Source: Dacryopinax spathularia
Taxonomy: Eukaryota > Basidiomycota > Dacrymycetes > Dacrymycetales > Dacrymycetaceae
Assembly (NCBI GenBank): GCA_037974965.1
Contig: JBBPFI010000013.1
Location: 1-64,000 of the forward strand
DNA length: 64,000 nucleotides
Direction of reading: 5' to 3'
The notes under the pieces were generated by a model, which did no database searches, had not been told where the DNA came from, and saw only the letters and a list, made by a program, of their open reading frames with translations. Positions 1 to 49,036 of this stretch are shown here, one piece after another; within the stretch, counting starts at the first letter, position 1; the number at the start of each line of letters is the position of its first letter. The position numbers and the translations under genes are program-made.

Positions 1-81
1 ACCCCTAACCCTACCCTAACCCTAACCCTAACCCTAACCCTAACCCTAACCCTAACCCTAACCCTAACCCTAACCCTAACC

Positions 82-113
<32 letters not shown>

Positions 114-150
114 CTAACCCTAACCCTAAGACCCTAACCCTAACCCTAAA
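1..150. repeat. Telomere (CCCTAA)n
   Basis: Nearly pure CCCTAA hexamers, C-rich strand on the plus strand, as expected at a left chromosome end. A few variant units (ACCCTAAACCC, CCCCTAACCC, CTAAGACCC) occur, mostly near the inner end. The array passes directly into the subtelomeric satellite at about 149-151 with no spacer. The TTAGGG unit is the common fungal telomere repeat. Confidence 0.97.
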
Positions 151-5794: not shown

Positions 5795-6191
5795 TCATTA
5801 GGAATCCCACTGCAGAGCGCCGTGCCGTACCTTTGATGAGGGGCCATATATTCCCCTGCTGTTACAGCAACCGCGTGCCATTCCCGCATGACCAATCGAG
5901 ATTGGTGATGACTAATCGTGTCCATCTGACTCCCAGACCCAATTAGTCACCAAAAAACACCATTAGTCATCAGGATTCACGCTGTACAGCACTGTGGCAT
6001 ACCCCCCCTATAGTGCAGCACTGAACCGGTGATATCGCAGGAACCGGGCCGCCCCAACGGCCGGGGACACCACCCGGCACCTTCCAGGGACCCCTGGTAC
6101 CCTCCTGGACCCCACAGACACGTTCCTGACACATTCACTTTGCGAAGGGGGTATGTCCGACCCATGTCCGACCTTACACCTTTCATACCTA
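5795..6191. repeat. Copy 1 of the subtelomeric gene 5' segment inside the satellite
   Basis: This segment repeats almost exactly at 8,526-8,922 and 15,444-15,840. It contains a diverged satellite unit (TTAGGAATCCCACTGCAG...), an ACCAATCgaGATTGGT box, and the first codons of the gene at 15,812, through the residues MSDLTPFIPR. At 6,191 the copy breaks and re-enters the satellite at ATCACCGAG. It is therefore a truncated, non-functional gene start. Confidence 0.9.
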
Positions 6192-8525
6192 GATCACCGA
6201 GTGAGATCCCTGATGACTAATCGGTGCAGACTGACTCTTTAGGTCAATTAGTCACCAAAAAACACAATTAGTCATGAGGATTCTAGCTGCTGGATGCTCT
6301 GCGGTGGGTGCGCATGGCGGTAGACTGTGATATCCCGCAGCGGCCGTTTCTCCATCACCGAGCGAGATCCCTGATGACTAATTGGTGCAGACTGGCTCTT
6401 TAGGTCAATTAGTCACCAAATGTCACGATTAGTCACGAGAATTCTGCCTGCGGGATGCTCTGCGGTGGGTGCGCATGGCGGTAGACTGTGATATCCCGCA
6501 GCGGCCGTTTCTCCATCACCGAGCGAGATCCCTGATGACTAATCGGTGCAGACTGGCTCTTTAGGTCCATTAGTCACCTAAAAACACAATTAGTCATCAG
6601 GATTCTGCCTGCGGGATGCCTGGCGCATGGCGCAATTCCTGACTGCCTGCGATAACTTGCAGAGGCCATTTCTCCATCACCGAGCGAGATCCTTGATGAC
6701 TAATCGGTGCAGACAGACTCTATAGGTCAATTAGTCACCAGAAAACACGATTAGTCATGAGGATTCTAGCTGCTGGATGCTCTGCGGTGGGTGCGCATGG
6801 CTGTAGACTGGGATATCACCCAGCGGCCGTTTCTCCATCACCGAGCGAGAACCCTGATGACTAATCCATGCAGACTGGCTCTTTAGGTCAATTAGTCACC
6901 AAATGTCACGATTAGTCATGACCGTTCTGCCTACGGGATGCCTTGCGCATGGCGCAATTCCTGACTGCCTGCGATAACTTGCAGCGGCCGTTTCTCCATC
7001 ACTGAGCAAGATCCCTGATGACTAATCGGTGCAGACTGGCTCTACAGGTCAATTAGTCACCAAATGTCATGATTAGTCATCAGCATTCTGCCTGCAGGAT
7101 GCCTGGCAGAGCGTGCACGTGGCTGTCATCTGCAATATCCCATAGCGGCTGTTTCTCCATCACCGAGCAAGATCCTTGATGACTAATCGGTGCAGACTGA
7201 CTCTTTAGGTCAATTAGTCACCAAAAAACACAATTAGTCATGAGGATTCTAGCTGCTGGATGCTCTGCGGTGGGTGCGCATGGCTGTAGACTGGGATATC
7301 ACCCAGCGGCCGTTTCTCCATCACCGAGCGAGAACCCTGATGACTAATCCATGCAGACTGGCTCTTTAGGTCAATTAGTCACCAAATGTCACGATTAGTC
7401 ATGACCGTTCTGCCTACGGGATGCCTTGCGCATGGCGCAATTCCTGACTGCCTGCGATAACTTGCAGCGGCCATTTCTCCGTCACCAAGCGAGATCCCTG
7501 ATGACTAATTGGTGCAGGCTGGTTCTTGAGGTCAATTAGTCACCAAATGTCACAATTAGTCATCAGGATTCTGCCTGCGGGATGCCTGGCGCATGGCGCA
7601 ATTCCTGACTGCCTGCGATAACTTGCAGAGGCCATCTCTCCATCACCGAGCGAGATCCTTGATGACTAATCGGTGCAGACGGACTCTATAGGTCAATTAG
7701 TCACCAAAAAACACAATTAGTCATAAGGATTCTGCCTGCGGGATGTTCTGCGGTGGGTGCGCATGGCGGTAGACTGGGATATCCCGCAGCGGCCATTTCT
7801 CCATCACGGAGCAACATCCCTGATGACCAATCGGTGCAGACTGGTTCTTGAGGTCAATTAGTCACCAAATGTCACGATTAGTCATGACCGTTCTGCCTAC
7901 GGGATGCCTTGCGCATGGCGCAATTCCTGACTGCCTGCGATAACTTGCAGCGGCCGTTTCTCCATCACTGAGCAAGATCCCTGATGACTAATCGGTGCAG
8001 ACTGGCTCTACAGGTCAATTAGTCACCAAATGTCATGATTAGTCATCAGGATTCTGCCTGCAGGATGCCTGGCAGAGCGTGCACGTGGCTGTCATCTGCA
8101 ATATCCCATAGCGGCTGTTTCTCCATCACCGAGCAAGATCCTTGATGACTAATCGGTGCAGACTGACTCTTTAGGTCAATTAGTCACCAAAAAACACAAT
8201 TAGTCATGAGGATTCTAGCTGCTGGATGCTCTGCGGTGGGTGCGCATGGCGGTAGACTGTGATATCCCGCAGCGGCCGTTTCTCCATCACCGAGCGAGAT
8301 CCCTGATGACTAATTGGTGCAGACTGGCTCTTTAGGTCCATTAGTCACCTAAAAACACAATTAGTCATCAGGATTCTGCCTGCGGGATGCCTGGCGCATG
8401 GCGCAATTCCTGACTGCCTGCGATAACTTGCAGAGGCCATTTCTCCATCACCGAGCGAGATCCTTGATGACTAATCGGTGCAGACAGACTCTATAGGTCA
8501 ATTAGTCACCAAAAAACACGATTAG

Positions 8526-8922
8526 TCATTAGGAATCCCACTGCAGAGCGCCGTGCCGTACCTTTGATGAGGGGCCATATATTCCCCTGCTGTTACAGCA
8601 ACCGCGTGCCATTCCCGCATGACCAATCGAGATTGGTGATGACTAATCGTGTCCATCTGACTCCCAGACCCAATTAGTCACCAAAAAACACCATTAGTCA
8701 TCAGGATTCACGCTGTACAGCACTGTGGCATACCCCCCCTATAGTGCAGCACTGAACCGGTGATATCGCAGGAACCGGGCCGCCCCAACGGCCGGGGACA
8801 CCACCCGGCACCTTCCAGGGACCCCTGGTACCCTCCTGGACCCCACAGACACGTTCCTGACACATTCACTTTGCGAAGGGGGTATGTCCGACCCATGTCC
8901 GACCTTACACCTTTCATACCTA
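8526..8922. repeat. Copy 2 of the subtelomeric gene 5' segment inside the satellite
   Basis: Sequence and breakpoint are the same as for the 5,795-6,191 copy, at an offset of 2,731 bp. The gene start is cut after the same codon and rejoins satellite at the same base. The shared breakpoint shows that this copy and the 5,795 copy came from one truncation event followed by duplication. Confidence 0.9.
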
Positions 8923-11900
8923 GATCACCGAGTGAGATCCCTGATGACTAATCGGTGCAGACTGACTCTTTAGGTCAATTAGTCACCAAAAAACACAATT
9001 AGTCATGAGGATTCTAGCTGCTGGATGCTCTGCGGTGGGTGCGCATGGCGGTAGACTGTGATATCCCGCAGCGGCCGTTTCTCCATCACCGAGCGAGATC
9101 CCTGATGACTAATTGGTGCAGACTGGCTCTTTAGGTCAATTAGTCACCAAATGTCACGATTAGTCACGAGAATTCTGCCTGCGGGATGCTCTGCGGTGGG
9201 TGCGCATGGCGGTAGACTGTGATATCCCGCAGCGGCCGTTTCTCCATCACCGAGCGAGATCCCTGATGACTAATCGGTGCAGACTGGCTCTTTAGGTCCA
9301 TTAGTCACCTAAAAACACAATTAGTCATCAGGATTCTGCCTGCGGGATGCCTGGCGCATGGCGCAATTCCTGACTGCCTGCGATAACTTGCAGAGGCCAT
9401 TTCTCCATCACCGAGCGAGATCCTTGATGACTAATCGGTGCAGACAGACTCTATAGGTCAATTAGTCACCAGAAAACACGATTAGTCATGAGGATTCTAG
9501 CTGCTGGATGCTCTGCGGTGGGTGCGCATGGCTGTAGACTGGGATATCCCGCAGCGGCCATTTCTCCATCACGGAGCAACATCCCTGATGACCAATCGGT
9601 GCAGACTGGTTCTTGAGGTCAATTAGTCACCAAATGTCACGATTAGTCATGACCGTTCTGCCTACGGGATGCCTTGCGCATGGCGCAATTCCTGACTGCC
9701 TGCGATAACTTGCAGCGGCCGTTTCTCCATCACTGAGCAAGATCCCTGATGACTAATCGGTGCAGACTGGCTCTACAGGTCAATTAGTCACCAAATGTCA
9801 TGATTAGTCATCAGGATTCTGCCTGCAGGATGCCTGGCAGAGCGTGCACGTGGCTGTCATCTGCAATATCCCATAGCGGCTGTTTCTCCATCACCGAGCA
9901 AGATCCTTGATGACTAATCGGTGCAGACTGACTCTTTAGGTCAATTAGTCACCAAAAAACACAATTAGTCATGAGGATTCTAGCTGCTGGATGCTCTGCG
10001 GTGGGTGCGCATGGCTGTAGACTGGGATATCACCCAGCGGCCGTTTCTCCATCACCGAGCGAGAACCCTGATGACTAATCCATGCAGACTGGCTCTTTAG
10101 GTCAATTAGTCACCAAATGTCACGATTAGTCATGACCGTTCTGCCTACGGGATGCCTTGCGCATGGCGCAATTCCTGACTGCCTGCGATAACTTGCAGCG
10201 GCCATTTCTCCGTCACCAAGCGAGATCCCTGATGACTAATTGGTGCAGGCTGGTTCTTGAGGTCAATTAGTCACCAAATGTCACAATTAGTCATCAGGAT
10301 TCTGCCTGCGGGATGCCTGGCGCATGGCGCAATTCCTGACTGCCTGCGATAACTTGCAGAGGCCATCTCTCCATCACCGAGCGAGATCCTTGATGACTAA
10401 TCGGTGCAGACGGACTCTATAGGTCAATTAGTCACCAAAAAACACAATTAGTCATGAGGATTCTGCCTGCGGGATGCTCTGCGGTGGGTGCGCATGGCGG
10501 TAGACTGTGATATCCCGCAGCGGCCGTTTCTCCATCACCGAGCGAGATCCCTGATGACTAATTGGTGCAGACTGGCTCTTTAGGTCAATTAGTCACCAAA
10601 TGTCACGATTAGTCATGAGAATTCTGCCTGCGGGATGCTCTGCGGTGGGTGCGCATGGCGGTAGACTGTGATATCCCGCAGCGGCCGTTTCTCCATCACC
10701 GAGCGAGATCCTTGATGACTAATCGGTGCAGACAGACTCTATAGGTCAATTAGTCACCAGAAAACACGATTAGTCATAAGGATTCTGCCTGCGGGATGTT
10801 CTGCGGTGGGTGCGCATGGCGGTAGACTGGGATATCCCGCAGCGGCCATTTCTCCATCACGGAGCAACATCCCTGATGACCAATCGGTGCAGACTGGTTC
10901 TTGAGGTCAATTAGTCACCAAATGTCACGATTAGTCATGACCGTTCTGCCTACGGGATGCCTTGCGCATGGCGCAATTCCTGACTGCCTGCGATAACTTG
11001 CAGCGGCCGTTTCTCCATCACTGAGCAAGATCCCTGATGACTAATCGGTGCAGACTGGCTCTACAGGTCAATTAGTCACCAAATGTCATGATTAGTCATC
11101 AGGATTCTGCCTGCAGGATGCCTGGCAGAGCGTGCACGTGGCTGTCATCTGCAATATCCCATAGCGGCTGTTTCTCCATCACCGAGCAAGATCCTTGATG
11201 ACTAATCGGTGCAGACTGACTCTTTAGGTCAATTAGTCACCAAAAAACACAATTAGTCATGAGGATTCTAGCTGCTGGATGCTCTGCGGTGGGTGCGCAT
11301 GGCGGTAGACTGTGATATCCCGCAGCGGCCGTTTCTCCATCACCGAGCGAGATCCCTGATGACTAATCGGTGCAGACTGGCTCTTTAGGTCCATTAGTCA
11401 CCTAAAAACATGATTAGTCATAAGGATTCTGCCTGCGGGATGCCTTGCGCATGGCGCAATCCTTGATCAGCCTTGATAACTTGCAGAGGCCGTTTCTCCA
11501 TCACCGAGCCAGATTCCTGATGACTAATCCATGCAGATTGACTATTTAGGTCAATTAGTCACCAAATGTCACGATTAGTCATGAGAATTCTGCCTGCAGG
11601 ATGCTCTGCGGTGGGTGCACGTGGCTGTCATCTGCAATATCCCATAGCGGCTGTTTCTCCATCACCGAGCAAGATCCTTGATGACTAATCGGTGCAGACG
11701 GACTCTTTAGGTCCATTAGTCACCAAAAAACACGATTAGTCATGAGAACTCCACCTGCAAGATGCCTTGCGCCTGGTGCAATTCCTGACTGCCTGCAATA
11801 TCCCTGAGCGTCCGTTTCTCCATCACCGAGTGAGATCCCTGATGACTAATCGGTGCAGACTGACTCTTGAGGTCAATTAGTCACCAAATGTCACGATTAG

Positions 11901-14900
11901 TCATCAGGATTCTGCCTGCGGGATGCTCTGCGGTGGGTGCGCATGGCTGTAGCCTGTGATATCCTGCAGGGGCTGTTTCTCCCTCACCGAGCGAGATCCC
12001 TGATGACTAATTGGTGCAGACTGGTTCTATAGGTCAATTAGTCACCAAAAAACACGATTAGTCATGAGAATTCTGCCTGCGGGATGCTCTGCGCATGGTG
12101 GAATTCCTGACCACCTGCAATATCTTGCAGCGGCCATATCTCCATTACCAAGCAAGATCCCTGATGACTAATCGGTGCAGACTGGTTCTTCAGGTCAATT
12201 AGTCACCAAATGTGACGATTAGTCATCAGGATTCTCCCTACAGGATGCCTTGCGCATGGTGCAATCCCTGACCACCTGCAATATCCCGCAGCGGCCGTTT
12301 CTCCATCACGGAGCAAGATCACTGATGACTAATCCAGGCAGACTGGCTCTTTAGGTCAATTAGTCACCAAATGTCACGATTAGTCATGACCGTTCTGCCT
12401 ACGGGATGCCTTGCGCATGGCGCAATTCCTGACTGCCTGCGATAACTTGCAGGGGCCGTTTCTCCATCACCGAGCAAGATCCTTGATGACTAATAGGTGC
12501 AGACTGACTCTTTGCATCAATTAGTCACCAAAAGACACGATTAGTCATCAGGATTCTGCCTGCGGCATGCCCTGCGCATGGCGCAATTCCTGACTGCCTG
12601 CGATAACTTGCAGCGGCCGTTTCTCCACCACCAAGCGAGATCCTTGATGACTAATCGGTGCGGACTGGTTCTTGGGGTCAATTAGTCACCAAATGTCACG
12701 ATTAGTCATAAGGATTCTGCCTGCAGGATGCTCTGCAGTGGGTGCACATGGCTGTAGATTGGGATATCCTGCGGCGGCCATTTCTCCGTCACCGAGCAAG
12801 ATCCCTGATGACTAATCGGTGCAGACTGGCTCTTTAGGTCCATTAGTCACCAAAAAACATGATTAGTCATAAGGATTCTGCCTGCGGGATGCCTTGCGCA
12901 TGGCGCAATCCTTGATCAGCCTTGATAACTTGCAGAGGCCGTTTCTCCATCACCGAGCCAGATTCCTGATGACTAATCCATGCAGATTGACTATTTAGGT
13001 CAATTAGTCACCAAATGTCACGATTAGTCATGAGAATTCTGCCTGCGGGATGCTCTGCGGTGGGTGCACGTGGCTGTCATCTGCAATATCCCATAGCGGC
13101 TGTTTCTCCATCACCGAGCAAGATCCTTGATGACTAATCGGTGCAGACGGACTCTTTAGGTCCATTAGTCACCAAAAAACACGATTAGTCATCAGGATTC
13201 TGCCTGCGGGATGCCTGGCGCATGGCGCAATTCCTGACTGCCTGCGATAACTTGCAGAGGCCATTTCTCCATCACCGAGCGAGATCCTTGATGACTAATC
13301 GGTGCAGACTGACTCTTTAGGTCAATTAGTCACCAAATGTCACGATTAGTCATAAGGATTCTGCCTGCGGGATGCTCTGCGGTGGGTGCGCATGGCGGTA
13401 GACTGGGATATCCCGCAGCGGCCATTTCTCCATCACCGAGCAACATCCCTGATGACTAATCGGTGCAGACTGACTCTTTAGGTCCATTAGTCACCAAAAA
13501 ACATGATTAGTCATAAGGATTCTGCCTGCGGGATGCCTTGCGCATGGCGCAATCCTTGATCAGCCTTGATAACTTGCAGAGGCCGTTTCTCCGTCACCAA
13601 GCCAGATTCCTGATGACTAATCCATGCAGATTGGCTCTTTAGGTCAATTAGTCACCAAATGTCACGATTAGTCATCATGATTCTGCCTACGGGATGCCTT
13701 GCACATGGCGCAATCCCTAACCACCTGGGCTATCCCGTAATGGCCGTTTCTCTATCACCGAGCGAGATCCCTGATGACTAATCGGTGCAGACTGACTCTT
13801 TGGGTCAATTAGTCACCAAAAAACACGATTAGTCATGAGAATTCTGCCTGCGGGATGCCTTGCGCATGGCGCAATTCCTGGGCCCCTGCAATATCCCGCA
13901 GCGGCCGTTTCTCTGTCACTGAGCAAGATCCCTGATGACTAATTGGTGCAGACTGGCTCTTTAGGTCAATTAGTCACCAAGAAACACGATTAGTCATCAG
14001 GATTCTGCCTGCGGGCTGCTCTGCGCATGGTGCCATTCCTGACTGCCTGCAATATCCCGCAGGGGCTGTTTCTCCATCACCGAGCGAGATCCCTGATGAC
14101 TAATCGGTGCAGACTGACTCTTTAGGTCAATTAGTCACCAAATGTCACAATTAGTCATGAGAATTCTGCCTGCGGGATGCTCTGCGGTGGGTGCGCATGG
14201 TGGTAGACTGTGATATCCCGCAGCGGCCGTTTCTCCATCACCGAGCGAGATCCCTGATGACTAATTGGTGCAGACTGGCTCTTTAGGTCAATTAGTCACC
14301 AAATGTCACGATTAGTCACGAGAATTCTGCCTGCGGGATGCTCTGCGGTGGGTGCGCATGGCGGTAGACTGTGATATCCCGCAGCGGCCGTTTCTCCATC
14401 ACCGAGCGAGATCCCTGATGACTAATCGGTGCAGACTGGCTCTTTAGGTCCATTAGTCACCTAAAAACACAATTAGTCATCAGGATTCTGCCTGCGGGAT
14501 GCCTGGCGCATGGCGCAATTCCTGACTGCCTGCGATAACTTGCAGAGGCCATTTCTCCATCACCGAGCGAGATCCTTGATGACTAATCGGTGCAGACAGA
14601 CTCTATAGGTCAATTAGTCACCAGAAAACACGATTAGTCATAAGGATTCTGCCTGCGGGATGTTCTGCGGTGGGTGCGCATGGCGGTAGACTGGGATATC
14701 CCGCAGCGGCCATTTCTCCATCACGGAGCAACATCCCTGATGACCAATCGGTGCAGACTGGTTCTTGAGGTCAATTAGTCACCAAATGTCACGATTAGTC
14801 ATGACCGTTCTGCCTACGGGATGCCTTGCGCATGGCGCAATTCCTGACTGCCTGCGATAACTTGCAGCGGCCGTTTCTCCATCACTGAGCAAGATCCCTG

Positions 14901-15811
14901 ATGACTAATCGGTGCAGACTGGCTCTACAGGTCAATTAGTCACCAAATGTCATGATTAGTCATCAGGATTCTGCCTGCAGGATGCCTGGCAGAGCGTGCA
15001 CGTGGCTGTCATCTGCAATATCCCATAGCGGCTGTTTCTCCATCACCGAGCAAGATCCTTGATGACTAATCGGTGCAGACTGACTCTTTAGGTCAATTAG
15101 TCACCAAAAAACACAATTAGTCATGAGGATTCTAGCTGCTGGATGCTCTGCGGTGGGTGCGCATGGCGGTAGACTGTGATATCCCGCAGCGGCCGTTTCT
15201 CCATCACCGAGCGAGATCCCTGATGACTAATTGGTGCAGACTGGCTCTTTAGGTCCATTAGTCACCTAAAAACACAATTAGTCATCAGGATTCTGCCTGC
15301 GGGATGCCTGGCGCATGGCGCAATTCCTGACTGCCTGCGATAACTTGCAGAGGCCATTTCTCCATCACCGAGCGAGATCCTTGATGACTAATCGGTGCAG
15401 ACAGACTCTATAGGTCAATTAGTCACCAAAAAACACGATTAGTCATTAGGAATCCCACTGCAGAGCGCCGTGCCGTACCTTTGATGAGGGGCCATATATT
15501 CCCCTGCTGTTACAGCAACCGCGTGCCATTCCCGCATGACCAATCGAGATTGGTGATGACTAATCGTGTCCATCTGACTCCCAGACCCAATTAGTCACCA
15601 AAAAACACCATTAGTCATCAGGATTCACGCTGTACAGCACTGTGGCATACCCCCCCTATAGTGCAGCACTGAACCGGTGATATCGCAGGAACCGGGCCGC
15701 CCCAACGGCCGGGGACACCACCCGGCACCTTCCAGGGACCCCTGGTACCCTCCTGGACCCCACAGACACGTTCCTGACACATTCACTTTGCGAAGGGGGT
15801 ATGTCCGACCC

Positions 15812-37851: not shown

Positions 37852-38408
37852 GAGTCGGGCGGAGTCGTAAACGGAGAGATGGAAGTTTCGGTGTTTCTAC
37901 GAATTCGCGGAATCCACCGGGGGATTTGCGTCCGATAATTGCGTCCGCTCCGAGTAGTCAGTTTGGCAGATTTTTGCCAACTGGTCCGTGCGCGTTATCG
38001 ACGTGGCAGATCCAGGCTATAACCCCTCGCGTTGGGCTCCAAATGACCTGTTCCCCCTATATTTAGGAGTAAAGAGGTATGCGAGGTATAGTAGCCCGGG
38101 TGCCAATAAGCAATATCGGTCGCGCCGGTATCTACGTTTGTAGTAGGGTTGACAGTAGTAGTAATGAAGTTGGTTAAGTAGTAATGAGCGTGAAGACCGA
38201 TACGCGATATCGGACTTAGGCGACAAGGATAAAGAACGGTAAGAGATGCATTTTTCACTAGGGCGAAAGCCCTGAACTATTATAGTACAAAAAGTTCCGG
38301 AGTCCGATAAGCGGGCTCCGGTTATAAAGGCGGGTGCATATATGAATATAAGGAACGTTAATTACCTATATCGGCTATCGGATGCCGAAAATTACGGCAC
38401 ACAGCACA
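37852..38408 (-). repeat. 3' LTR of the Ty3/gypsy element
   Basis: 557 bp, matching 47,306-47,862 except at two sites: CCCTCGCGTTGG here versus CCCTCGTGTTGG, and CATATATGAAT here versus CATATACGAAT. Both differences are C/T at a CpG. In element orientation the LTR begins TGTGCTGTG and ends CCGACTC. Confidence 0.95.
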
Positions 38409-38728
38409 TCCGCGGGGGCCTTACTCTTCTACCTGTCCCAGGTAGAAATCGCACAGTCTGTCCCGATATCCTTGTGTCGGTATTTTTATCGGTGACCCGA
38501 TAAGAGCAACGGATATAGAGGGCGTCGCTACTTAAGGGCCCTGACTCAGCCGCGTCATGTGCGGAATACTTGCGAAAAGGCGGGATGGCAAGGTCGCGGA
38601 GGCGGAATCAATTCGCCGCGGTATTAAAAGATGGCGCACTCCGCGTTCTTGTCGTTCTCCATCTCTCTCTCGTACCACCATCTCGACAACTTCCTCCCCC
38701 ACTTGACTTAATAGAAACTGTCGACGAT

Positions 38729-41146
38729 ATGGCGGCCGCGAAGACGAAGAACAAGAAATCGTGAGTGTCGCCTGCTCCTTCGACCGCGGTGACCGATAAG
38801 TCGGCCGCGTCCTCCGCGCAGAGTCGTGCGGCACGCGCTGCAAGGAGGGCGAAGACGATGGAGGCTGTAGAGGCCGATACTCCGGTGCGCCCGATGTTTA
38901 GCTCGTGTCCGACACGCATATACTGACATGTTAATAGGTTACTGCCGATCAGACCGAGCCCGAGGCCGATACGGAGGCGGCCAACAACAACGAGGCGGCC
39001 GGTACAGCCGATAACGAAGCTGGCACCGACAACGGTGCTGAAGACGACGGTGCCGATGATGGTGCCGCCGATAAGGCCACTCCGGCGGAAGAAGACGACT
39101 CCGGAGAATCGGAGAAGCCCGATACCACGGTATCGGCTAAGACCGTCCGCGAAGAGTTGGTCCTTCGCAAGTCGGCGACGCCTGCGCCGAAAAGGGCCAC
39201 TCCCAAGGCCGAGACTCCCGCTCAGCCCAAGGCTCGTAAGCTTCCGGTAAGTCGTTTCGTTTTAAGTCCGTGGTACGCGATAACTGATTGCCTACAGGCT
39301 GTCCCCATCGCTCCCAAGAAGGCCCCGGCCGACATTCCGGTGATTGACGAGGGTGAAGAGACCGAGCCCGACGATATCCCGGAGTCCGCCAAGCCGCCCG
39401 TTATCGAGGTCCCCGATAACGTTACCGAGCCAGACGATGAGGAGATCGTCCCTCCTCCTCAGCGCGCGGGCTTGACCATATCGGAGCTCGTCTTGAAGGT
39501 CCCCAAGGCGAAATTGGCGAGGGCCGAATGGGCCAAAGGTGACATGATTGAGGCTTTTCGCGTAAGTCCTCGTTTCGTCACTTTCCGCCCATATCCGATA
39601 CTGACCGATGACAGATTGCGCTCGTATCGGCGCTTTACTCGCACCGCGGAAGTTGGATGGACGTGAAGTCGTACGTGGCTCAAGTCATGGGCCCCACCTT
39701 CCAAAAGGTGTGGAAGGAGCGCACGGTAAGTCCTTATCGGTTATCGGTGTGAGTATCGCTGACTTCGTATCACAGGGAAATAATGATTTCGTGATCTTCA
39801 CGAATGGCTCCCCGCTTAGGAGTATCCACGAGGAGTGGACGGGCTTTACGCCCTACGACGAAAAGTTCCGGAACAGGGCCGGAACGAGGCCTGCTGAAAT
39901 CGCGCTGGAGGAGTTTTACGCGAAGGACGAAGCGGCCGTCTTGGAGGAACCGGAGCCCGATTTGAAGGATATCGAGAGGGAGCTCGCCTGGCTCAAGGAC
40001 AAGGGCAAGGGCAAGGGCAAGGAGACCGCCGCGCCGAAAACCGGTAAGAGCGTCCGTGTGGACTCCGGCTCTACGGCTGCCGCGGCGAAAAGGCCTGCCG
40101 TGGCTGTGACTCCGGCCGCGAAAACGGCGGTAAGTAATCTCTTATCGTTTATCGGCGCCCGTGCTGACTCGTTGGGCAGGAGAAAAGGGAAGACCATCCG
40201 GAAGAATGGGTGTGGCATGTCGTAAGTTATCGGTTTTCGGTTATCGGCTTTGGCTAACAATATTCGAAGGACGACGCCGACCCTTCTTATCGCCCCACCG
40301 GCCTCAACATGAGCGTTATGACGCCCATGGAGGTGGTTACCGAAGGTTGGACCGAGCGGATGAAGAAACTTTTCGGTAAGCCGCATTTCCGCCGCGGCTA
40401 TAAGAACGATACGGCGGTAAGTCCCTCTTTTCGGTTATCGGACAACGCTGACAATCGACCACAGTGCGACTCGTGCATCAAGGCCGATATCCTCTGCACC
40501 GGAGGAATCAAGTTCAATCCGAAGGGTCGCGGTAAGGAGATCGCCGGCATCATCTGCGACCAGTGCCAGATCAAAGGCACCACTTGCTCGTATGCCGCGC
40601 CCTGTAAGTCCGATATCCAAAACGATATCGTTCGTTCTGACCGTATCGGTAGCGAATCGACGTGGCCGAAAGGGACGTGCTCGCGATGACGATGGAGAGC
40701 CCAGTCCGGCCGCGAAAAAGGCCAAGAGAGCCGTATCGGAAGTCAAGGAGGTCAGGCCGATCGCCAGCACTTCCCGCGAGCCCGTCATCACCAATAGCGA
40801 CATCGAGGTGTACGACCGATACGCCTGGCGTCCTTCGATGACGCCGGACTTCCATATGCTGACTTTGCCCCGCAGTAAGTAATGTTTGCGGCCCGATAAT
40901 CGATTTCGGCTGATTTCGGTTACAGCTGTTGCCGCTCGCCGCATCCAAGTTGAAGCCCGTCGTTTGATGGCCTTCAACGAGATGTACATGCACAGCTGGC
41001 GCCGGTTCATCGTGGCTACGGAGGCTGGTGAGGAGGAGGTCACATTTATCGTGAACCCGATCGACGCCAACGAGCGCTCCCTCGGCCAGCCGATAAGGCA
41101 CCCGGCGAAGATAACCTCCTTCGTCCACTTCCTCCAGGATGAGTGA
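38729..41146 (+). CDS. Antisense intron-rich gene inside the retrotransposon (CxxCx6C protein)
   Basis: I do not recognise the family. Eleven exons join in frame: 38,729-38,760; 38,824-38,884; 38,938-39,246; 39,298-39,561; 39,615-39,725; 39,776-40,129; 40,180-40,221; 40,270-40,416; 40,465-40,603; 40,653-40,874; 40,926-41,146 (1,902 nt, 633 residues). Introns are 48-63 nt, most with GTAAGT donors and CTGAC/CTAAC branch sites. Only the first acceptor (CAGAG) is doubtful. The N-terminus is basic (MAAAKTKNKKS), then an acidic Ala/Glu/Asp-rich stretch, an alpha-helical segment with ELVLKVPKAKLARAEWAKGDM, and a KGKGKGKE basic tract. The protein has a paired cluster CDSCIKADILC and CDQCQIKGTTC (19 residues between the third and fourth Cys), similar in spacing to fungal Zn(II)2Cys6 domains. 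A nuclear, DNA-binding product is plausible. It runs opposite to gag-pol, from inside the 3' LTR side towards integrase. Confidence 0.8.
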
Positions 41147-41329
41147 GTCGGCGTTATCGGATCGGAGGATATCGGTTTTCGGACTTCTTGGCGCGGCCTT
41201 AGATAGGTTTTTGTCGTAGTTAGACGGTGGAAAGAAAATAGTGAGAAAAACCAAACGAGTGTGATGATTTCGGATATCGGTATATCGGCCGCTGGGGTCT
41301 GGGTATGAGCGGACTCTGACTCTGGATTT

Positions 41330-44300
41330 TTACACCAGCGTTGTTTTATCGGCGTTGTTCCGATATGTAGGCGCAATTGCCCGTTCTCCTACTCCTTCTA
41401 CTTCTCCTCCTGCTTCTCCTTCTTCTCCTGCTTTTCCTTCTTCGTCTTCTTCTCCTTCTACGTTATCGCCCACATCAGCTCCAACGTCTCCCAGCTCTGA
41501 GTCCCCTTCTCCGTCGCGGTCGATCTGCTCTTGCTCATTATCGGGCAGGTAATCGGGATCGTTATCGGTGAATTTGGCTTTGTCCAGGTTCTCCAAGACG
41601 GTATTGACGATATGAGATAAATCCCCCCGGGCTAGGTAAGGAATGACGCGGAACTGTGCTACGGTATGACGGAATATCGTCCCGTCCAAATCTGCGATAT
41701 GATAGGCGCCTCCTGCGTTTCACCGAGCCACGATATATGGTCCGATATATCGCGGTTTCGTTTTGTCCCGTAATGGTCCATCATGCTTGCTGTTTCTCAA
41801 CAATACCAAGTCCCCTATTTTGAACTCATGATCGAATATCAATCCTTCGAATTTTTCTTTGAATCTTTCGATATTTTGGTATCGTGACTTCATGATCCGG
41901 TTCTCCATGTCGTCCAGGTCTTCCGGTCGTTTGAGGAGCTGTTGAGCCCGATACGCGATAAGCTGCTGACGCGATAACAGGTTATCGGGTGGAGGGACCA
42001 GCCAAGTTGCCTGTGTGATATCCATCGGCAATATCGGATGGATTCCGTGAGCCATGTAGAAAGGGGACATCCCAGTCGAGCTATGTATCGCGATTCTTTC
42101 CGCCCAGAAAACCGAAGGCACTACCTCGGGCCATTTGTCTATATTGCCTTTGCAAAGTTTCACGATCGCTTCTCTCACGCTTCCATGGCTCTGTTCGACC
42201 GTTCCGTTGGCCCGCGAGTTATAGCTCGATATTCGGATATGGGTAACGTCGTACTTATCGCTCAGCTGCTGGACTGCCTTGACCCACGGAGTACCGTTGT
42301 CGGTGACAATTTCGGTTATCGTTCCCCATCGACATAGAACGTTCTTATAGAGAAAGTCCTCGATAATGTCTGCCGTTTCCTTTCGGCATATCAGGTATTC
42401 AGGCCAATGGGTGAGCGAACATCGGGCCTGTAGAATATATCGCATTCCTCTATATCGGCCTTTCGCGACCGGCATGAGCATCGTGTCGCAGTAGGCCCGT
42501 ACGAATAACGGTTGAGGGCGTTGTGCTTTAGGCGGAATGATAACGTGACGCATTTGTTGCCTTTGGCACTCTAAGCACGTCCGTAAGTACCACTTGATAT
42601 CGTCGCTCATATTTGGCCAGAAGAATCGAAGTTGTGCGTGTTGGTACACCGTCCGATAGCCTCGATGTCCAATATCGTCGTGGAGATGTCGCAAGACGTT
42701 CAGGCGCTGATGATAAGCGATATAGAGCCGATGTTGACCATTTGGTTGTCTCTTGTATAAATCATCCTCTCCGACCAGGAAGTACCTCCTTGTGAGTTCG
42801 AGGAATGATTTCCATTGCGCATCATTCATTCCATTCGGTCTGCGCATGTTCCTCAAGTATCGAATCACCTTTTGGAGTTTTTCGTCCGCAGTTTTCGTCT
42901 TTTCGGTGCGCGGTAATATCTCCTCCGGGGGGCCGAAAAAAATTGGAACTGGTTTCCGACTAGCCAGTTCCAATTGGAATGCTGTCGATAATGCGAATGA
43001 GTCCTCTTCATCTGTCTCAGGGAATCGATTTCGGATTTCGTCGTTATCGGCCGGAGGTCATCGGGACAATCCATCTGGGGCCGTGTGTCGTGTGGCCGGT
43101 ACATGTACTAACACAAAATTGAAGAGGTGAATCCAAGCGATCCATCTGTTGATAACCATGTTTGGTTGAATATCAGGATGGTTCAACATGCCCTGAATGA
43201 ATTTGGCGTCCACTTCTAAGTCAAACTCCGATAATCCGATAAGCCAGATGCGCATTGCTTTCAAGGCTTGGTACACGCCGTAAAGCTCCAGTTTCGGCTG
43301 CGAATATCGGCTTTCGACGTCATTCCATCCGATAGAGCCAAATCGACTCGGTCGCCGATGGCCCTTATTGTCGAGTTGATATAGTACGTAACCACAGGCG
43401 ATATTGGAGGAGTCGACTGCCAGGATGACTTTTCGCTTGGACCGATAATCGATAGGGACCAAAACATTATTCGTCTCCGCTTCTTGCGCAGCCTTTTGGA
43501 GATCCTTGACAGCTTGCATTTCGGCGTCTCCAAATTCGAAGATTACTCCTTTTTGCTTCAGTCTCTCCAAAGGCCTCGCCTTTTCGGCAAAATTACGTAT
43601 AAAGATACGCATGATGCCAACTGTGCCCAGGAAGGCTCGCACCTCCGATAAGTTTTCGCAGGGGAGTTTCCAATTCAGTATCTTCTGGACTTTCGATGGA
43701 TCCGGATGTCGGCCGTTGTAGGAGCACCGATATCCTAAAAGGATCATTTCGGGCACGCATATCTCTGCTTTTGGTCCCGAAAAGGTCGCGCCTGCATGCT
43801 CGGCTCGCGTAATGATGCGATTCATATTTTCGAGATGCTCGAATACGAATCTGCGTATGCCCGGATTGCCTTTGATGGTCTCGTAGCCATTGTTTTGTTT
43901 GTAACGGGTCGCAGGGCCTTTCACGCCTAGGTCGTCGATAAACGGGGTCGTGATATGTGGCATTTCGTCTCCGAAAAGGAAATTGACGTTGTCCTGCATG
44001 ATTCCTGGCATATTGTGGGCTCCCATAGGCGCAACTGTATATCGGAGTGGACCGATAGGAGATTGGAATGAGGTATAGTCTCTCGACTGAGGCGCCAGGG
44101 CGTGTTGTTCGAAACCGCGATAAAAGTCCAACAGGCCGAAGCAAGCCCTTCCCCCATAGCTTTCGAGGATGTGCTCGGTAAGGGGCGGGACCGATGAGCT
44201 CCTGATCATGACGCCGTTAAGCGGCCGTGCATCGATAACGGGACGATATTCGCCGGATTTCTTGAGTACCACGAACCAACGGCTCCGATAAGACGACTGT

Positions 44301-44938
44301 GAGGGTTCATAGGTGCCTGCTGCGACTTTATCGCGCAGGACTTGTACGACATCGTCGATAATGGCTGGAGGTATCGGAATATTACATTCCTGCCAGGGGG
44401 TATGTTCGACGGTCGGGAATATTACCGGATCGAAGTAATCGTCGTGAAATCGACCAATTTCGGATTCCGTCCACGAAAACGCCATTTCGTGTGTCCGAAA
44501 GATCCAGGCGACCAGCTTTTCTTCTTCTGGCCAGAGGAACCCATATTTGTTTATGTTAAGGGCCTCATATCGTTCCTGGGTTAATCGTTTCCCGGGAGAA
44601 AATACCGGTGGTTTTTGCGGCAATGGCTGGAGGTTTTCTAAGGGGTTCGAGGGAAATCAGCGGCGGATCTTCAAATGCTCGGGGTGGACGGCAGGGACCG
44701 GTTTGACACGGTCCTCTACTTTTTTGTATTTTCGGACAGCAAGGGTATTGTGTATCGGGTCGTGTTGGTAGGTCTCTTCGACCAGACTGAAGTCTATATA
44801 CGGAATTTCGGGTATCGGAGCGGTATACTGGATTGCGGCGAAAACGTCTCTCTGAGGAAATCTCAGTTCATTGACTTGTAAAAATCCGAGCTGGATTCGA
44901 TGGTCGAGGCTTTTGTCGGTACGACGAGTTGCTCATGA
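41330..44938 (-). pseudogene. pol: Retrotransposon pol: RT, RNase H, integrase (with in-frame TGA codons)
   Basis: One reading frame runs from about 44,938 (just inside the end of protease, -1 relative to it) to 41,330, broken by TGA at 44,657-44,659, 43,058-43,060 and 41,720-41,722. RT: YRPVIDARPLNGV, FGLLDFYRGFEQ and the catalytic FIDD in TTPFIDDLGV. RNase H: ILAVDSSNIACGYVLYQ with the catalytic Asp. Integrase: HHCC zinc site (HDDIGHRGYRT...CLECQ), core Asp in VTDNGTPW and Glu in NGTVEQSHG, and the C-terminal RYIGPYIVAR module that continues past the TGA as NAGGAYHIADLDGT. The final stretch is acidic. The stops each follow an Arg codon and could come from CGA. Active if read through, otherwise a recent pseudogene. 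Confidence 0.9.
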
Positions 44939-45726
44939 GTGTTGGGACACGTAAGCGTCAGTTCCTGGTAGCCGCTAGGGTGGTCCTTGGATTCGCACCG
45001 GAACAGGGCAAGGAAAGGGCGACCGATAAGAAGCGGTATAGGCAGATCGTCCGATACTTGAACTTGAAAGAGGCCGGTAAGCGTTCCCACCGATATCCTC
45101 AAATTGCAAATGCAGCCTTTGGTATAGCTGATCTCGCCATTTGCAGATCGCACTCCGACCTTATCCTCCGGGTAGTAATGAAGGTGTAGGCGTCTCGCGA
45201 TATGACTATGTAGGAGAATCATTGTCGAGCCTGAATCAAGACAACCGGTAACCGTGATGTCGTCATCACCCACCCGCACATCTATATCGCGCAGGCCGAT
45301 CATGTCGTGCCCCACGACAATTCCTTTCGGGGCGTCTCGAGCTCCCGATACGTGCCAGATGTGTTCAACAATTGACGGCAGTCTATATCGGTCGCTCGTA
45401 TCGGGTTCTTGGCCCAATTCCTCTTCTATTATCGCGCCGGTGAACGCGTTTAGAACCGGAGGAGCCTTGGCGATACGTTTGGATTGCGTTTGTTGTTGCA
45501 GATGTTTTCGTGCCTGTGGAGAAACAGCCAACAGCTCCGCCAGCGACACCGAGGTCTGGGTTTTCATGAAGTTGGCGATAACCGTATCAACCAGTGCTTC
45601 GTTCTCGGCTGGGCTACGAAATTGCATCTTCCCATAAGGATTGGTGTCAGGACGTGTGTCCGTCTTATCGCCTTTGTCGGCTTGTTGTTCTCCTCTCGGT
45701 TCGGTCGTCCCGGTACCCTCGCCCAT
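44863..45726 (-). CDS. Retrotransposon aspartic protease (pro)
   Basis: In the same frame as gag and separated from it by a TGA (45,772-45,774); the open stretch begins right after that stop. It contains the retropepsin active site in GCLDSGSTMILLH (Asp-Ser-Gly) and the later hydrophobic-hydrophobic-Gly turn ILLIGRPFL-like (PIPLLIGRPFLALF). Its N-terminal part is hydrophilic (GTGTTEPRGEQQADKGDK). It cleaves the Gag-Pol polyprotein. Its last ~70 nt overlap the start of the pol frame, so pol is presumably reached by -1 frameshifting or was displaced by an indel. Confidence 0.85.
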   Translation of the reverse strand: MGEGTGTTEPRGEQQADKGDKTDTRPDTNPYGKMQFRSPAENEALVDTVIANFMKTQTSVSLAELLAVSPQARKHLQQQTQSKRIAKAPPVLNAFTGAIIEEELGQEPDTSDRYRLPSIVEHIWHVSGARDAPKGIVVGHDMIGLRDIDVRVGDDDITVTGCLDSGSTMILLHSHIARRLHLHYYPEDKVGVRSANGEISYTKGCICNLRISVGTLTGLFQVQVSDDLPIPLLIGRPFLALFRCESKDHPSGYQELTLTCPNTHEQLVVPTKASTIESSSDFYKSMN

Positions 45727-45771
45727 CTGATTGTCCTTATCGGGTTGGTTGTCATACTCTTTGTGAGGTTG

Positions 45772-47229
45772 TCACCGAAAGGGAATGGGCCGACCCGCGG
45801 GGGCCTTATCGGTACGCCTGCCCACTCTGGTACGGTCCAATTGGGCTTGCAACACGGCAATCGTTCTCTCTAATTCCTCCTCCGGCTGGCCGAGAACATT
45901 ATCGGCGTCCCCGAGGTTGTGAAGGATATTGACCGGTAATGCCTGAAAGGGAAGGGCATCATGCGGGATATCGACTGTTATCGCTGGCGGAATGCCGATA
46001 TTGTGCAGTAGATTGACGGGTTGAGCTGTACGGCTGGGAACACCTGCCTTGGAGTTTAGGTCTTGTACCCTATGTCCGGGATTAGAAGCGTGCCAGGCTA
46101 GGGTTCGCTCCTTTAGGGTGTCACCCATAGAAGCTGGGGCGTATTGGCCATCCGGTAAAGTGACACGTCCTCCGGCATTGGTACTCCTAATAACGTACCC
46201 ATTCCGGATATGTTCCTCAAGGTCGCTGCAGTCTCGGATGAGATGGTCGGTGTGGCCACACCATAGACAGCGCTGGCTTCGGTTTATCGGGTTTCCGCCG
46301 ATTCCTGGTCCAGTCATATGGGGAGGCGGTTGTCGCTGAAACGTCTGTTGGTACGGCGGATTATAGTGCTGTTGTTGCTGGTTTCGCGCGATATCGTCCA
46401 TTCTCCCCTCTAACCGGGCCATTAACTGAAGCATGCGCTCCTGAATTTGCAGGCTCGGCTCGACCTTGATATCGGTTTTCTCCTCTGTTTTCGGCTTCGT
46501 CGGGCCTTTCGTACCTACAGGGCCCGAATCCCAATCGATAGGAATATAGGGAGCGGTAGCAGGTGTAGAATAGAGAAGGTGCTCCGCCGCCTCGGTAACG
46601 GACTTCATCGTATAGGGGTCCATAGGATAATGATGGTCCGGTTCCTTTATCGCCAATCGGTTGCGTAAGGCGTCCTGAAAATCAGGGTGGAAACCTCTGA
46701 TGAAAAATCGGTCACGGTCGTCGACCGATAACTTTCCTCTTTCCTCCAGGTATTCCGCGATAACCGAAAACTGGCAAAGGTACTCGGCGAGCTGATTACG
46801 GGAGTCCATTTCGATAAGGGCGGCCCGGCTGACCAACCTTTCCAGATCCAGTTTCGTATATCGCCTCTTATCGTCCACTGCGCCAGGATATAGCCGTAGT
46901 ACCGCCATTTTGAAGGCGTTGTAGTCCCGACCTTTCGACTCCGGTAATGTCGACCAGATCTCCTGTACTTTCGGGGGTGCATATCGGAGGCACCATTTCG
47001 GCCATTCTCCCCGGTCCAGCTCCGCATACTCCGCACATTGTTCCACGTCCTCGAGGTATCGGACAACATTATCGGCTGTCGCTTGTACGAGGGCTGGCGC
47101 ATTGGGACTCGTCCGTAGGGGCATCGGATATCGCGCCCGCCTATTTTCGGGAACTGCGCCGTGATCGCCGTCGTTTGGACCCTGACCGATCCCGCGATTG
47201 TCGGGATCATTTTGATTATCGGCCGGCAT
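45772..47229 (-). CDS. gag: Retrotransposon Gag with CCHC zinc knuckle
   Basis: Capsid/nucleocapsid precursor that packages the element RNA; 485 residues from ATG 47,229 (MPADNQNDPDNRGIGQGPN). The central region has capsid-like helices (ADNVVRYLEDVEQCAEYAE..., RDRFFIRGFHPDFQDALRNRL). A Gln-rich linker precedes the zinc knuckle CLWCGHTDHLIRDC (C-x2-C-x4-H-x4-C). It ends at TGA 45,772-45,774 in the context CGG TGA CAA. Translation in the same frame beyond the stop leads into protease. The short 5' untranslated stretch to the LTR is 47,230-47,305. Confidence 0.92.
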   Translation of the reverse strand: MPADNQNDPDNRGIGQGPNDGDHGAVPENRRARYPMPLRTSPNAPALVQATADNVVRYLEDVEQCAEYAELDRGEWPKWCLRYAPPKVQEIWSTLPESKGRDYNAFKMAVLRLYPGAVDDKRRYTKLDLERLVSRAALIEMDSRNQLAEYLCQFSVIAEYLEERGKLSVDDRDRFFIRGFHPDFQDALRNRLAIKEPDHHYPMDPYTMKSVTEAAEHLLYSTPATAPYIPIDWDSGPVGTKGPTKPKTEEKTDIKVEPSLQIQERMLQLMARLEGRMDDIARNQQQQHYNPPYQQTFQRQPPPHMTGPGIGGNPINRSQRCLWCGHTDHLIRDCSDLEEHIRNGYVIRSTNAGGRVTLPDGQYAPASMGDTLKERTLAWHASNPGHRVQDLNSKAGVPSRTAQPVNLLHNIGIPPAITVDIPHDALPFQALPVNILHNLGDADNVLGQPEEELERTIAVLQAQLDRTRVGRRTDKAPAGRPIPFR

Positions 47230-47305
47230 ATCTGAGTCCGGTTCCGATTCTGTCCGACTTGGTAGGTGTGAGGATAGATCGATATCCGGTATGTATTCGT
47301 CGGAG

Positions 47306-47862
47306 GAGTCGGGCGGAGTCGTAAACGGAGAGATGGAAGTTTCGGTGTTTCTACGAATTCGCGGAATCCACCGGGGGATTTGCGTCCGATAATTGCGTCC
47401 GCTCCGAGTAGTCAGTTTGGCAGATTTTTGCCAACTGGTCCGTGCGCGTTATCGACGTGGCAGATCCAGGCTATAACCCCTCGTGTTGGGCTCCAAATGA
47501 CCTGTTCCCCCTATATTTAGGAGTAAAGAGGTATGCGAGGTATAGTAGCCCGGGTGCCAATAAGCAATATCGGTCGCGCCGGTATCTACGTTTGTAGTAG
47601 GGTTGACAGTAGTAGTAATGAAGTTGGTTAAGTAGTAATGAGCGTGAAGACCGATACGCGATATCGGACTTAGGCGACAAGGATAAAGAACGGTAAGAGA
47701 TGCATTTTTCACTAGGGCGAAAGCCCTGAACTATTATAGTACAAAAAGTTCCGGAGTCCGATAAGCGGGCTCCGGTTATAAAGGCGGGTGCATATACGAA
47801 TATAAGGAACGTTAATTACCTATATCGGCTATCGGATGCCGAAAATTACGGCACACAGCACA
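47306..47862 (-). repeat. 5' LTR of the Ty3/gypsy element
   Basis: Same 557-bp sequence as 37,852-38,408 with two C/T differences. As the upstream LTR for the minus-strand element it should hold the promoter for gag-pol. The sequence just inside it (TCCTCCGACGAATAC on the element strand) does not begin with the TGG usual for a tRNA primer-binding site. Confidence 0.95.
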
Positions 47863-48512
47863 GACGTCCTCGGCAGTCCTCAAAGGTATCCTATGGAAAC
47901 CATTGATCAATCTCCGGTGGGAATCCATGCCTCTACCGAAGAGGTCATATCGATAAATATGTGCCTCCCTGCCATGGCACCATACCTTCAAGACTCGATT
48001 GTTCGTATCGACTTAGGTGATGCCGTCGACCTCACGCAGGAGAAGCTCATTCGTCGCCCTACCGTTACCATTCATTACGCGGCTCCCGAGGCGCTTCTCA
48101 ACGACGAAATTCTCCTGGGGTCTGACATCTGGTCCTTGGCACTGCTGCTGTTCGAGTTGTTGACTGGGCTACAGCTGATCGAGGGCCGATATGCAACGCC
48201 GCGCTACGTGCTTGCCGAACAGGAATGCTTGCTTGGGCTTTCTGAAGGGTCCTTAGCCAGTGGAGGCGAGGTACTGGATGGTGGTGGGAACACGCTGGAG
48301 AGAGTGGAGAAGATACTTCGCAAAGTTGCCCAGGGAGACAAGCGATGGACGAACGGTCCTATGGTTGCCCCTTTAGGCCAGCCATTGTCAGAAGAGGATG
48401 TCCAGCGGTGGTTGCGGCTTCTTTCGAGTATGCTAAGGCTTCGTCCGGAAGACAGACCCTCAATTGAGACGGTCATGGACCGACTCTCGGAGGAGTTCTC
48501 CGTTCCTCGAAG

Positions 48513-49036
48513 AATCCATGCTGAGTATTGATCTGGGCGACACCCTTGATCTCTCGCCTCTGCAGGACGGAAGGCCACCTCCAACAGTTCCCATGAACTA
48601 TTGATCTGCTGAGTCTCTCGTAGACCGGCACATTCGAAGGCTTCTGACGTCTAGTCTTTTAGCAAGCTACTCTTAGAGTTGTTGACCGGGTGGTCCCTTG
48701 ATGAAGGTGGACACTCAGCGGAGGATCTATCAAGTGGCCTCAGGAGCAACTTTCAACATCGCAGAGGGATCTCTGTTCACCACCATAATGCAAGACACAG
48801 TTTCTGGTGCAGACATTGATGCGTCCTCGCGCGTGATTATGCAGAAGCTGTCCGACGCCGGTAACGGCGATACGCGCGCAATGGACGGACCCATGGTGAG
48901 CCCACCGGGCAAGGCATTGGAGAAGGAAGACATACAGCGCTGGTCCCCCTTGCTAGGCAGCATGCTGAGGCTTCGAGCTGCCGACCGACCCTCGACCGAA
49001 ACAGTCAACAGTTCTCGCGAAAGAGTCTACCGTTAG
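48513..49036 (+). pseudogene. SRPK-like kinase, copy 3, C-lobe relic
   Basis: Begins inside the 3' end of copy 2 with ESMLSIDLGDTLDLSPLQDG, the DLG segment of the family, then PTVPMNY followed by a stop (TGA, 48,602-48,604) at the APE position. AESLVDRHIRR and LLELLTGW-like fragments follow in shifted frames. A last stretch reads GPMVSPPGKALEKEDIQRW...MLRLRAADRPSTETV. Multiple stops and frame changes mark it as dead. No N-lobe is present. Confidence 0.85.

Follow-up and report, generated by a model that had tools for sequence, protein, structure and literature searches.

How can a gene rich in introns persist in an element that multiplies through an RNA copy of itself? The question arises in the first 64,000 nucleotides of contig JBBPFI010000013.1 of the basidiomycete Dacryopinax spathularia (assembly GCA_037974965.1), the whole of which we refer to as the window. 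Here a 9.8-kb Ty3/gypsy-type long terminal repeat (LTR) retrotransposon, belonging to a family that we designate F1, carries gag-pol on the minus strand, and a chain of exons runs along the plus strand between integrase and the 3′ LTR, the antisense placement that a first-pass annotation of the window had proposed. We find that this chain is a genuine multi-exon coding gene, which is under purifying selection and occurs in three families of elements in this genome (F1, F2 and F3), that its introns persisted during transposition of the lineage and that key intron positions have been kept between families. On the basis of these sequence comparisons, we consider that a Ty3/gypsy lineage probably carries the chain as a conserved accessory gene, with a probability of roughly 0.6. 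The recent copies, the selection and the common intron positions support the core of the earlier proposal, namely that the element carries an intron-rich gene in antisense and passes it on through retrotransposition.

A multi-exon antisense gene under purifying selection

The first-pass annotation had described an intact gene of 11 exons and ten introns. Enumerating acceptors for its ten donors gave 1620 stop-free combinations, and the longest stop-free chain reproduced its 633-codon, 11-exon frame on the plus strand at 38729–41146. Its first intron did not withstand comparison with the three other F1 copies described below. This 63-nt segment (38761–38823), a multiple of three in length, has a GC rather than a GT donor in all three and is read through there in frame, and five of its seven variable sites fall at third codon positions. 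We rejected the intron on these grounds; the gene most likely has ten exons and nine introns, and our model, cut at the first stop, is otherwise the earlier one. The corrected frame comprises 654 codons in two of the sister copies (L005 and L006) and 652 in the third (L007). Because the sister copies keep the proposed intron 1 as coding sequence, the window copy acquires an in-frame TGA at codon 12, and its intactness is doubtful unless its GTGAGT donor is used or translation begins further down. The donors of the nine remaining introns in the window are GTAAGT in eight cases and GTGCGC in one.

38409–38728, plus strand: 320-nt leader from the 3′ LTR to the antisense ATG, a possible promoter or 5′ untranslated region
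38729–38884, plus strand: exon 1 as corrected, with TGA at codon 12; formerly split at 38761–38823
38938–39246, plus strand: exon 2, acidic
39298–39561, plus strand: exon 3
39615–39725, plus strand: exon 4, conserved L..G..Q..W module, with a 5′ border common to F2 and F3
39776–40129, plus strand: exon 5
40180–40221, plus strand: exon 6
40270–40416, plus strand: exon 7
40465–40603, plus strand: exon 8, entire six-cysteine cluster C-x2-C-x6-C-x19-C-x2-C-x6-C
40653–40874, plus strand: exon 9, basic stretch beyond the cluster
40926–41146, plus strand: exon 10, including the stop codon

A search for further copies, as the first-pass annotation had advised, returned four genome matches to the antisense gene region: the window itself and copies on C11 (L005), C7 (L006) and C2 (L007) that are 95–96% identical. 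LTR pairs are 99.6–100% identical in the four F1 copies and 99.7–100% in the three sister copies, which have the target duplications CAAC, GAAG and GAGG. Because their LTR pairs are nearly identical and each has its own target duplication, the sister copies are separate recent insertions. Synonymous divergence of the antisense frame among the F1 copies is nevertheless 8–12%; the lineage therefore accumulated this divergence across rounds of copying through RNA without losing the introns.

The pattern of variation is that of a coding sequence. In the four-copy F1 alignment, 31/653, 18/653 and 88/653 first, second and third codon positions are variable (4.7, 2.8 and 13.5%), as are 56/450 intron positions (12.4%). 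Single-base indels in the F1 gene are confined to introns, and the sole exon indel is 6 nt long; over the three families, 6039 exon bases contain no frameshift indel, and 1344 intron bases contain 29. The ratio of nonsynonymous to synonymous substitution (dN/dS), a comparison that had also been recommended, is 0.13–0.20 in all six F1 pairs, 0.17–0.29 in 20 of 21 F2 pairs and 0.14–0.25 in all ten F3 pairs, so that 36 of 37 pairs lie at 0.13–0.29; the remaining pair (L012/L026, 0.69) consists of near-duplicates that are not independent. The F2, F3 and F4 gene models were picked on the same alignments, which makes their dN/dS values somewhat favorable and tells against taking them at full weight. 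Because integrase has a dN/dS of 0.03–0.12 in the same F1 copies (reference L006), the antisense protein is constrained but less tightly than integrase. L005 is out of frame near the junction of reverse transcriptase (RT) and integrase.

A comparative gene finder, used because a single-sequence finder merged adjacent genes in L010, scored the gene strand at 146.5 for F1, 137.9 for F2 and 176.3 for F3. Scores for the opposite strand over the same span were 20.0, 12.2 and 3.9, for the reversed alignment 11.6, 10.2 and 4.2, and for the best of 15 column shuffles 15.9, 9.7 and 4.5, respectively. The earlier judgment that the chain is not due to chance thus holds, with 146.5 against at most 20.0 in the F1 controls.

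Homologues and intron positions in related element families

A search with the window RT recovered 19 loci that are ~67–100% identical to it, including split or broken ones. F2 and F3, whose RTs are ~71–78% identical, contain diverged homologues of the antisense gene in the same place and orientation, and the gene or part of it lies on the opposite strand behind integrase at 18 of the 19 loci. Full copies lacking the gene or showing it broken, which the first-pass annotation had named as contrary evidence, were therefore not the pattern that we encountered. We did not find the gene at L017 (C6:309494), where a different element has its RT beginning 3.8 kb downstream. We aligned 16 copies (four F1, seven F2 and five F3), excluding the split locus L015 and a fragment beside C1:2479578. 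On the criteria of stop codons and GT/AG sites, the gene is open in 13 of these 16 copies, the exceptions being the window and L019 (a stop each) and L009 (one splice site). At L015 (F3; C7:1301868–1318083, with L010), the antisense gene is split by an inserted F2 element.

The proteins of the three families are homologous: F1 and F2 align with a hhalign E value of 7e-16, F1 and F3 with 7e-5 (pairwise blastp, 7e-8), and F2 and F3 with 0.004 (blastp, 4e-5). F1 and F2 have four exact intron positions in common (rough chance, 1e-7). F3 coincides at the start of the L..G..Q..W exon and at the intron directly before the first cysteine, and two further F3 introns have equal phase and lie within ~1 codon. 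Because these positions are common to diverged families, introns older than the family split survived retrotransposition. The distance from the antisense ATG to the 3′ LTR is 318–320 nt in the four F1 copies, ~520 nt in one F2 copy and ~430 nt in one F3 copy.

A more distant family, F4 (RT 54–55% identical; L020–L023 and L025), has two antisense signals of intron-containing genes. The one with a dN/dS of 0.18–0.31 is unrelated to the F1–F3 gene by hhalign, and the F4 gene model has one frameshifting exon indel. The F4 copy examined (the C1 copy in L020, L036, L040 and L041) spans ~9.1 kb from RT/ribonuclease H (RNase H) to the 3′ LTR, with a 462-nt LTR and the duplication ACGC.

Orientation offers the simplest account of intron survival: if splicing can act on the introns only in a transcript of the opposite strand, copying through RNA would leave them in place. 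Transcription of the antisense gene would start at a promoter inside or beside the 3′ LTR and proceed into the element, and the host would splice the transcript. The genomic RNA would be the complementary strand, in which the spliceosome would leave the introns and reverse transcription would keep them.

With the F1, F2 and F3 products as protein queries against the genome, we recognized no clear free host copy of the gene; the matches are the element loci and relics. One almost full-length F2-like gene has no RT match next to it (C9:730856–733260), but it lies inside a 5′-truncated F2 element, 88% identical from the integrase end to the end of the 3′ LTR. This truncated element directly adjoins another F2 element in opposite orientation (L049, C9:728300–738130). 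Three shorter gene fragments, ~70–91% identical to F2, occur at C8:349290, C1:2498885 and C1:2478908, and they may weigh against a strictly element-bound distribution. The regions C1:2479000–2499700 and C8:349000–364000 may form a segmental duplication that carries an F2 element and antisense gene relics ~70% identical to F2.

Two simpler origins were weighed. In a GC-rich sequence with many GT and AG sites, a long stop-free chain could assemble by chance, and the opportunity is ample: the window holds 121 open reading frames (ORFs) of at least 100 amino acids on its two strands, in addition to the many acceptor combinations counted above. Codon periodicity, dN/dS, the distribution of indels, the conservation of splice sites among the four copies and the presence of homologues in two other families all speak against such an assembly, and with the dN/dS values and the gene-finder controls refuting it, we give it practically no credence. 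The intron-rich architecture does resemble that of a host gene, and transduction has been invoked for some additional ORFs of plant elements (PMC7264820, in part), so that a host gene might have been captured once by a single element copy as a mere passenger. Presence at nearly all related RT loci refutes a recent single capture, selection persists, three families carry the gene and no free host copy was recognized; this origin, which the first-pass annotation had named as damaging to its own proposal, is very improbable. An ancient capture before the split of F1, F2 and F3 is possible and compatible with a conserved accessory gene of the lineage.

Antisense genes of retroelements are a known kind. 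Those in the interval from pol to the 3′ LTR include ORFs of the plant elements Grande, RIRE2 and Retand, and the Grande product is nuclear, according to passages of PMC7264820 and PMC11963269. In those passages the plant class aORF-3R (gene23 of Grande, RIRE2 and TRP28 of Retand) has the same place and antisense orientation as the gene described here and is conserved across copies and species; our gene falls within the definition of this class, being antisense, conserved and positioned between pol and the 3′ LTR, in whole or in part at 18 of 19 RT loci. It differs in its many introns, a form not discussed in the main texts of PMC7264820 and PMC11963269, from which the word ‘intron’ is absent. 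It differs from Retand TRP28 also in domain content, because PF04195 was not matched by four antisense proteins in Pfam searches at E values up to 10.

Among fungal elements, Zhao et al. (2011) reportedly described brtn of Boty. As portrayed in parts of the citing papers, to whose descriptions our comparison is confined, brtn is likewise an antisense gene, situated between pol and the 3′ LTR, of a fungal Ty3/gypsy element, found in Botrytis cinerea and Sclerotinia (PMC7264820, PMC8365987). The statement that such a gene is not a standard feature of fungal elements consequently needs division: the antisense fungal Ty3 gene has a precedent, but no intron-rich form was found in the open-licence papers searched. 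HBZ, an antisense gene of the retroelement human T-cell leukemia virus type 1 (HTLV-1), is spliced and encodes a basic leucine zipper (bZIP) factor. Its promoter lies in the 3′ LTR (PMC10186651, in part) and its product is nuclear (PMC11963269, in part). Both are antisense retroelement genes, but ours has nine introns and a cysteine cluster, and Pfam found no bZIP domain in the antisense proteins. In the open-licence papers searched, we found no report of an LTR retrotransposon whose antisense gene is rich in introns. As far as that literature goes, what is new is the intron-rich, selected form with conserved intron positions, together with the hexamer saturation described below. Comparison within a single genome reveals that an antisense gene with nine introns can outlast repeated transposition of a retrotransposon lineage. 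The antisense genes of plant and retroviral elements are little understood, and the present case adds to them one that is rich in introns and demonstrably under selection.

The protein product, the family hexamers and possible functions

The protein starts with a basic segment, followed by an acidic region, a short module that is conserved, a cysteine cluster and then basic stretches. One exon contains the whole six-cysteine cluster in F1, F2 and F3, and the six cysteines are invariant in 16/16 copies. The classical Zn(II)2Cys6 pattern (PROSITE PS00463) is C-x2-C-x6-C-x5,12-C-x2-C-x6,8-C. The two C-x2-C-x6-C triads resemble those of fungal Zn(II)2Cys6 factors, and the classical spacing is present in all five F3 proteins but in none of three F1 and six F2 proteins, whose loops are longer (19–20 residues) and whose last triad in F2 has x8. 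Zn_clus is the most frequent Pfam match of the antisense proteins, below cut-off; at E values up to 10, PF00172 matches eight of 16 cluster exons (best, 0.05), and a sequence search of the PDB gave five weak matches (best E value, 0.078). The earlier suggestion of a Zn(II)2Cys6-type domain is therefore supported in part, by the invariant cysteines and the F3 spacing but not by the F1 and F2 spacing or the Pfam scores. On the opposing side, the window exon scores 13.9 bits against the PF00172 gathering score of 21, both AlphaFold predictions for the cluster have low confidence (predicted local distance difference test (pLDDT) of 52 and 66), and a Foldseek search of the PDB with the better, still low-confidence model (pLDDT 66) returned no match. 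On balance, the product is probably a nuclear protein with a Zn2Cys6-like cluster and a basic stretch, which would bind DNA or chromatin and control the element in trans.

If the protein binds DNA, the elements themselves contain candidate sites.

37852–47862, both strands: TATCGG/CCGATA hexamers, 86 against an expectation of 8.7, scattered over LTR, leader, gag, pol and the exons and introns

The remaining 54 kb of the window, which include 15 kb of satellite, have eight (expected, 18.9). Compared with synonymous-codon shuffles, TATCGG is in excess in the antisense exons (14 versus 2.4), RT (11 versus 1.7), gag (11 versus 2.8), protease (7 versus 1.3) and integrase (7 versus 2.2). F3 has hexamers of its own, TAACGC (45; expected, 4.6) and TACCGC (34; expected, 5.0), as does F2 (TTTCGG/TTTCGA, 67; expected, 20.0). 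Each family’s own motif exceeds the synonymous-codon shuffles in F1 (z scores of 3.8–8.9, six sequences) and F3 (5.3–6.7, three sequences), and the motifs of other families score −1.5 to 3.3. Most single-base variants of TATCGG are near expectation in F1, and the raised ones are TTTCGG (35 versus 8.7), TATCGC (29 versus 7.5), TATCGT (18 versus 6.4) and TACCGG (15 versus 5.7). At neutral-class sites in F1, 11/199 positions vary inside motifs and 250/2139 outside (P = 0.0035); five control-hexamer pairs had 6–32 sites each and carry little weight. The F1 hexamers are balanced between strands (38 and 47), and two TATCGG within 20 bases occur 124 times genome-wide, against 57 for the reversed control.

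For scale, the top hexamer z scores are 10.4–16.4 in 2.5-kb F1 pieces, 8.1 in L043 (2.5 kb, weak), 7.3 in F4 (weak) and 6.2 in F5, and no hexamer exceeds 6 in the 2.5–4 kb taken from each of L037, L039, L045, L046, L047 and L048. Four host chunks of the window reach 4.6–6.0, and two others, which are subtelomeric satellite, 75–98. Low-complexity purine hexamers rank top in one 2.5-kb F3 piece.

VANDALs are Mutator-type DNA transposons and not LTR elements. In Arabidopsis they encode the anti-silencing protein VANC, which goes with a dense, short, family-specific motif; motifs and proteins diverge together, and the unrelated element AT9TSD1 shares the VANC6 motif, as set out in portions of PMC5735166 and PMC10398659. 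As far as those portions go, the parallel lies in an element-coded protein, a dense family-specific motif, which is clear in F1 and F3 and weaker in F2, and an unrelated element with a similar motif (L038/L042); the difference is that VANDAL motifs sit in non-coding tandem repeats, and those described here are mostly dispersed and occupy coding sequence too. By analogy, the hexamer saturation suggests a cognate DNA-binding regulator like VANC. As a speculation that we consider less likely than not, the antisense product may recognize the hexamer of its family and keep family copies open; it would recognize the motif across the element and counteract silencing. Three points speak for this idea: families with diverged proteins have different motifs, the F1 motif is strand-balanced and the antisense product is the sole obvious extra regulator. 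More speculative still is the complete VANC-like scheme, in which an antisense gene shielded by its orientation would encode a protein that coats hexamers in LTRs, introns and synonymous codons for anti-silencing and self-recognition, with L038/L042 possibly exploiting it. The family-specific hexamers offer a direct test of the function of such antisense proteins, and if the protein binds its own hexamer, LTR elements outside plants would possess a system for anti-silencing or self-recognition.

Several observations count against hexamer recognition by the antisense protein. In F2, low-complexity AGAAGA-type hexamers outrank TTTCGG/TTTCGA, and the antisense exons show no excess of the family motif (one observed, 1.3 expected). 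Motif conservation is marginal in F2 (22/172 inside versus 424/2387 outside, P = 0.056; five of seven copies used) and in F3 (P = 0.015 with two copies and 0.056 with five). A distant Ty3 family (L038, reverse complement of 1–2330, and L042, 1–2330) has dense GGTAACG/CGTTACC, close to the F3 motif and biased to the sense strand (GTTACC, 19 to 1), and its apparent LTR follows straight after the pol frame, leaving no room for an antisense gene. We accordingly discarded the notion that dense hexamers occur only in elements with the gene. L038 could be making use of the protein of F3 in trans; alternatively, both motifs could be read by a host factor.

It is about an even bet that the hexamers are unconnected with the antisense protein and reflect a host factor, integrase, Gag or an element-specific mutation bias. 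The gene-less L038/L042 and the F2 exons fit this, and the CpG-containing motifs could reflect methylation effects; mutation bias itself is unlikely, with one hexamer enriched 10-fold and most of its single-base variants near expectation, and the motifs differ between families whose antisense proteins differ too. The product might instead bind RNA, or Gag or integrase, and act in packaging, nuclear import or the choice of integration site. Zinc-knuckle-like cysteine modules also bind RNA, and the motif of gene-less L038/L042 is strongly sense-stranded; we nonetheless hold this to be unlikely, for the strand balance of the F1 hexamers fits double-stranded DNA if they are the target, and the basic stretches next to the cluster point to a nuclear location. 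A role for the transcript rather than the protein, through double-stranded RNA that tunes silencing of the element, has been proposed for plant and animal elements (PMC7264820, in part), and antisense transcription would yield such RNA anyway. The strong protein-level constraint and the invariant cysteines need a function of the protein, which leaves a transcript-based explanation quite improbable as a replacement for it, although both may hold together.

The window element and its surroundings

The order protease, RT, RNase H, integrase, established with Pfam, fits a Ty3/gypsy LTR retrotransposon, and the F1 element in the window has the following parts.

38044–47862, minus strand: Ty3/gypsy-type LTR retrotransposon of family F1, 9.8 kb, with 365-nt LTRs
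47498–47862, minus strand: 5′ LTR, 365 nt, TG..CA, one of the paired repeats
47479–47495, minus strand: probable tRNA primer-binding site by position, TGGAGCCCAAC..., 2 nt past the 5′ LTR
45772–47448, minus strand: gag-like open frame, 558 amino acids from stop to stop, without a Pfam match
44863–45771, minus strand: aspartic protease frame (PF13650 and PF13975 above cut-off)
43058–44656, minus strand: RT/RNase H frame, with a stop at the integrase junction (PF17917 and PF17919 above cut-off, RVT_1 below)
41720–43057, minus strand: integrase frame, with a second stop within the C-terminal part (PF17921 above cut-off, rve below)
38044–38408, minus strand: 3′ LTR, 365 nt, the other paired repeat
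37852–38043, minus strand: 192 nt of the 5′ leader, a second occurrence beyond the 3′ LTR

The LTR length was set from the C11 and C7 copies (365 nt) and the C2 copy (366 nt); the repeat in the window measures 557 nt, with two mismatches. The window is the only one of the four F1 copies with leader sequence beyond the 3′ LTR, which may mark an aberrant insertion or the remnant of a tandem copy. Comparison of its flanks revealed no clearly recognizable target duplication, and 4-bp duplications flank all three F1 sister copies and the one F2 and one F3 copy examined. The pol region of the window has two stops and that of the C7 and C2 copies is open here (1191 and 1203 amino acids); the window copy is a decaying member of the family, and the antisense gene is open in other copies.

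A kinase-like stop-to-stop frame (PF00069 above cut-off) at 47806–48531 starts inside the outer end of the 5′ LTR, and the F1 insertion may have cut a kinase gene. A telomere, (CCCTAA)24, opens the window, and behind it lie 15 kb of a satellite with a 161-bp unit in ~95 copies (1–15451).

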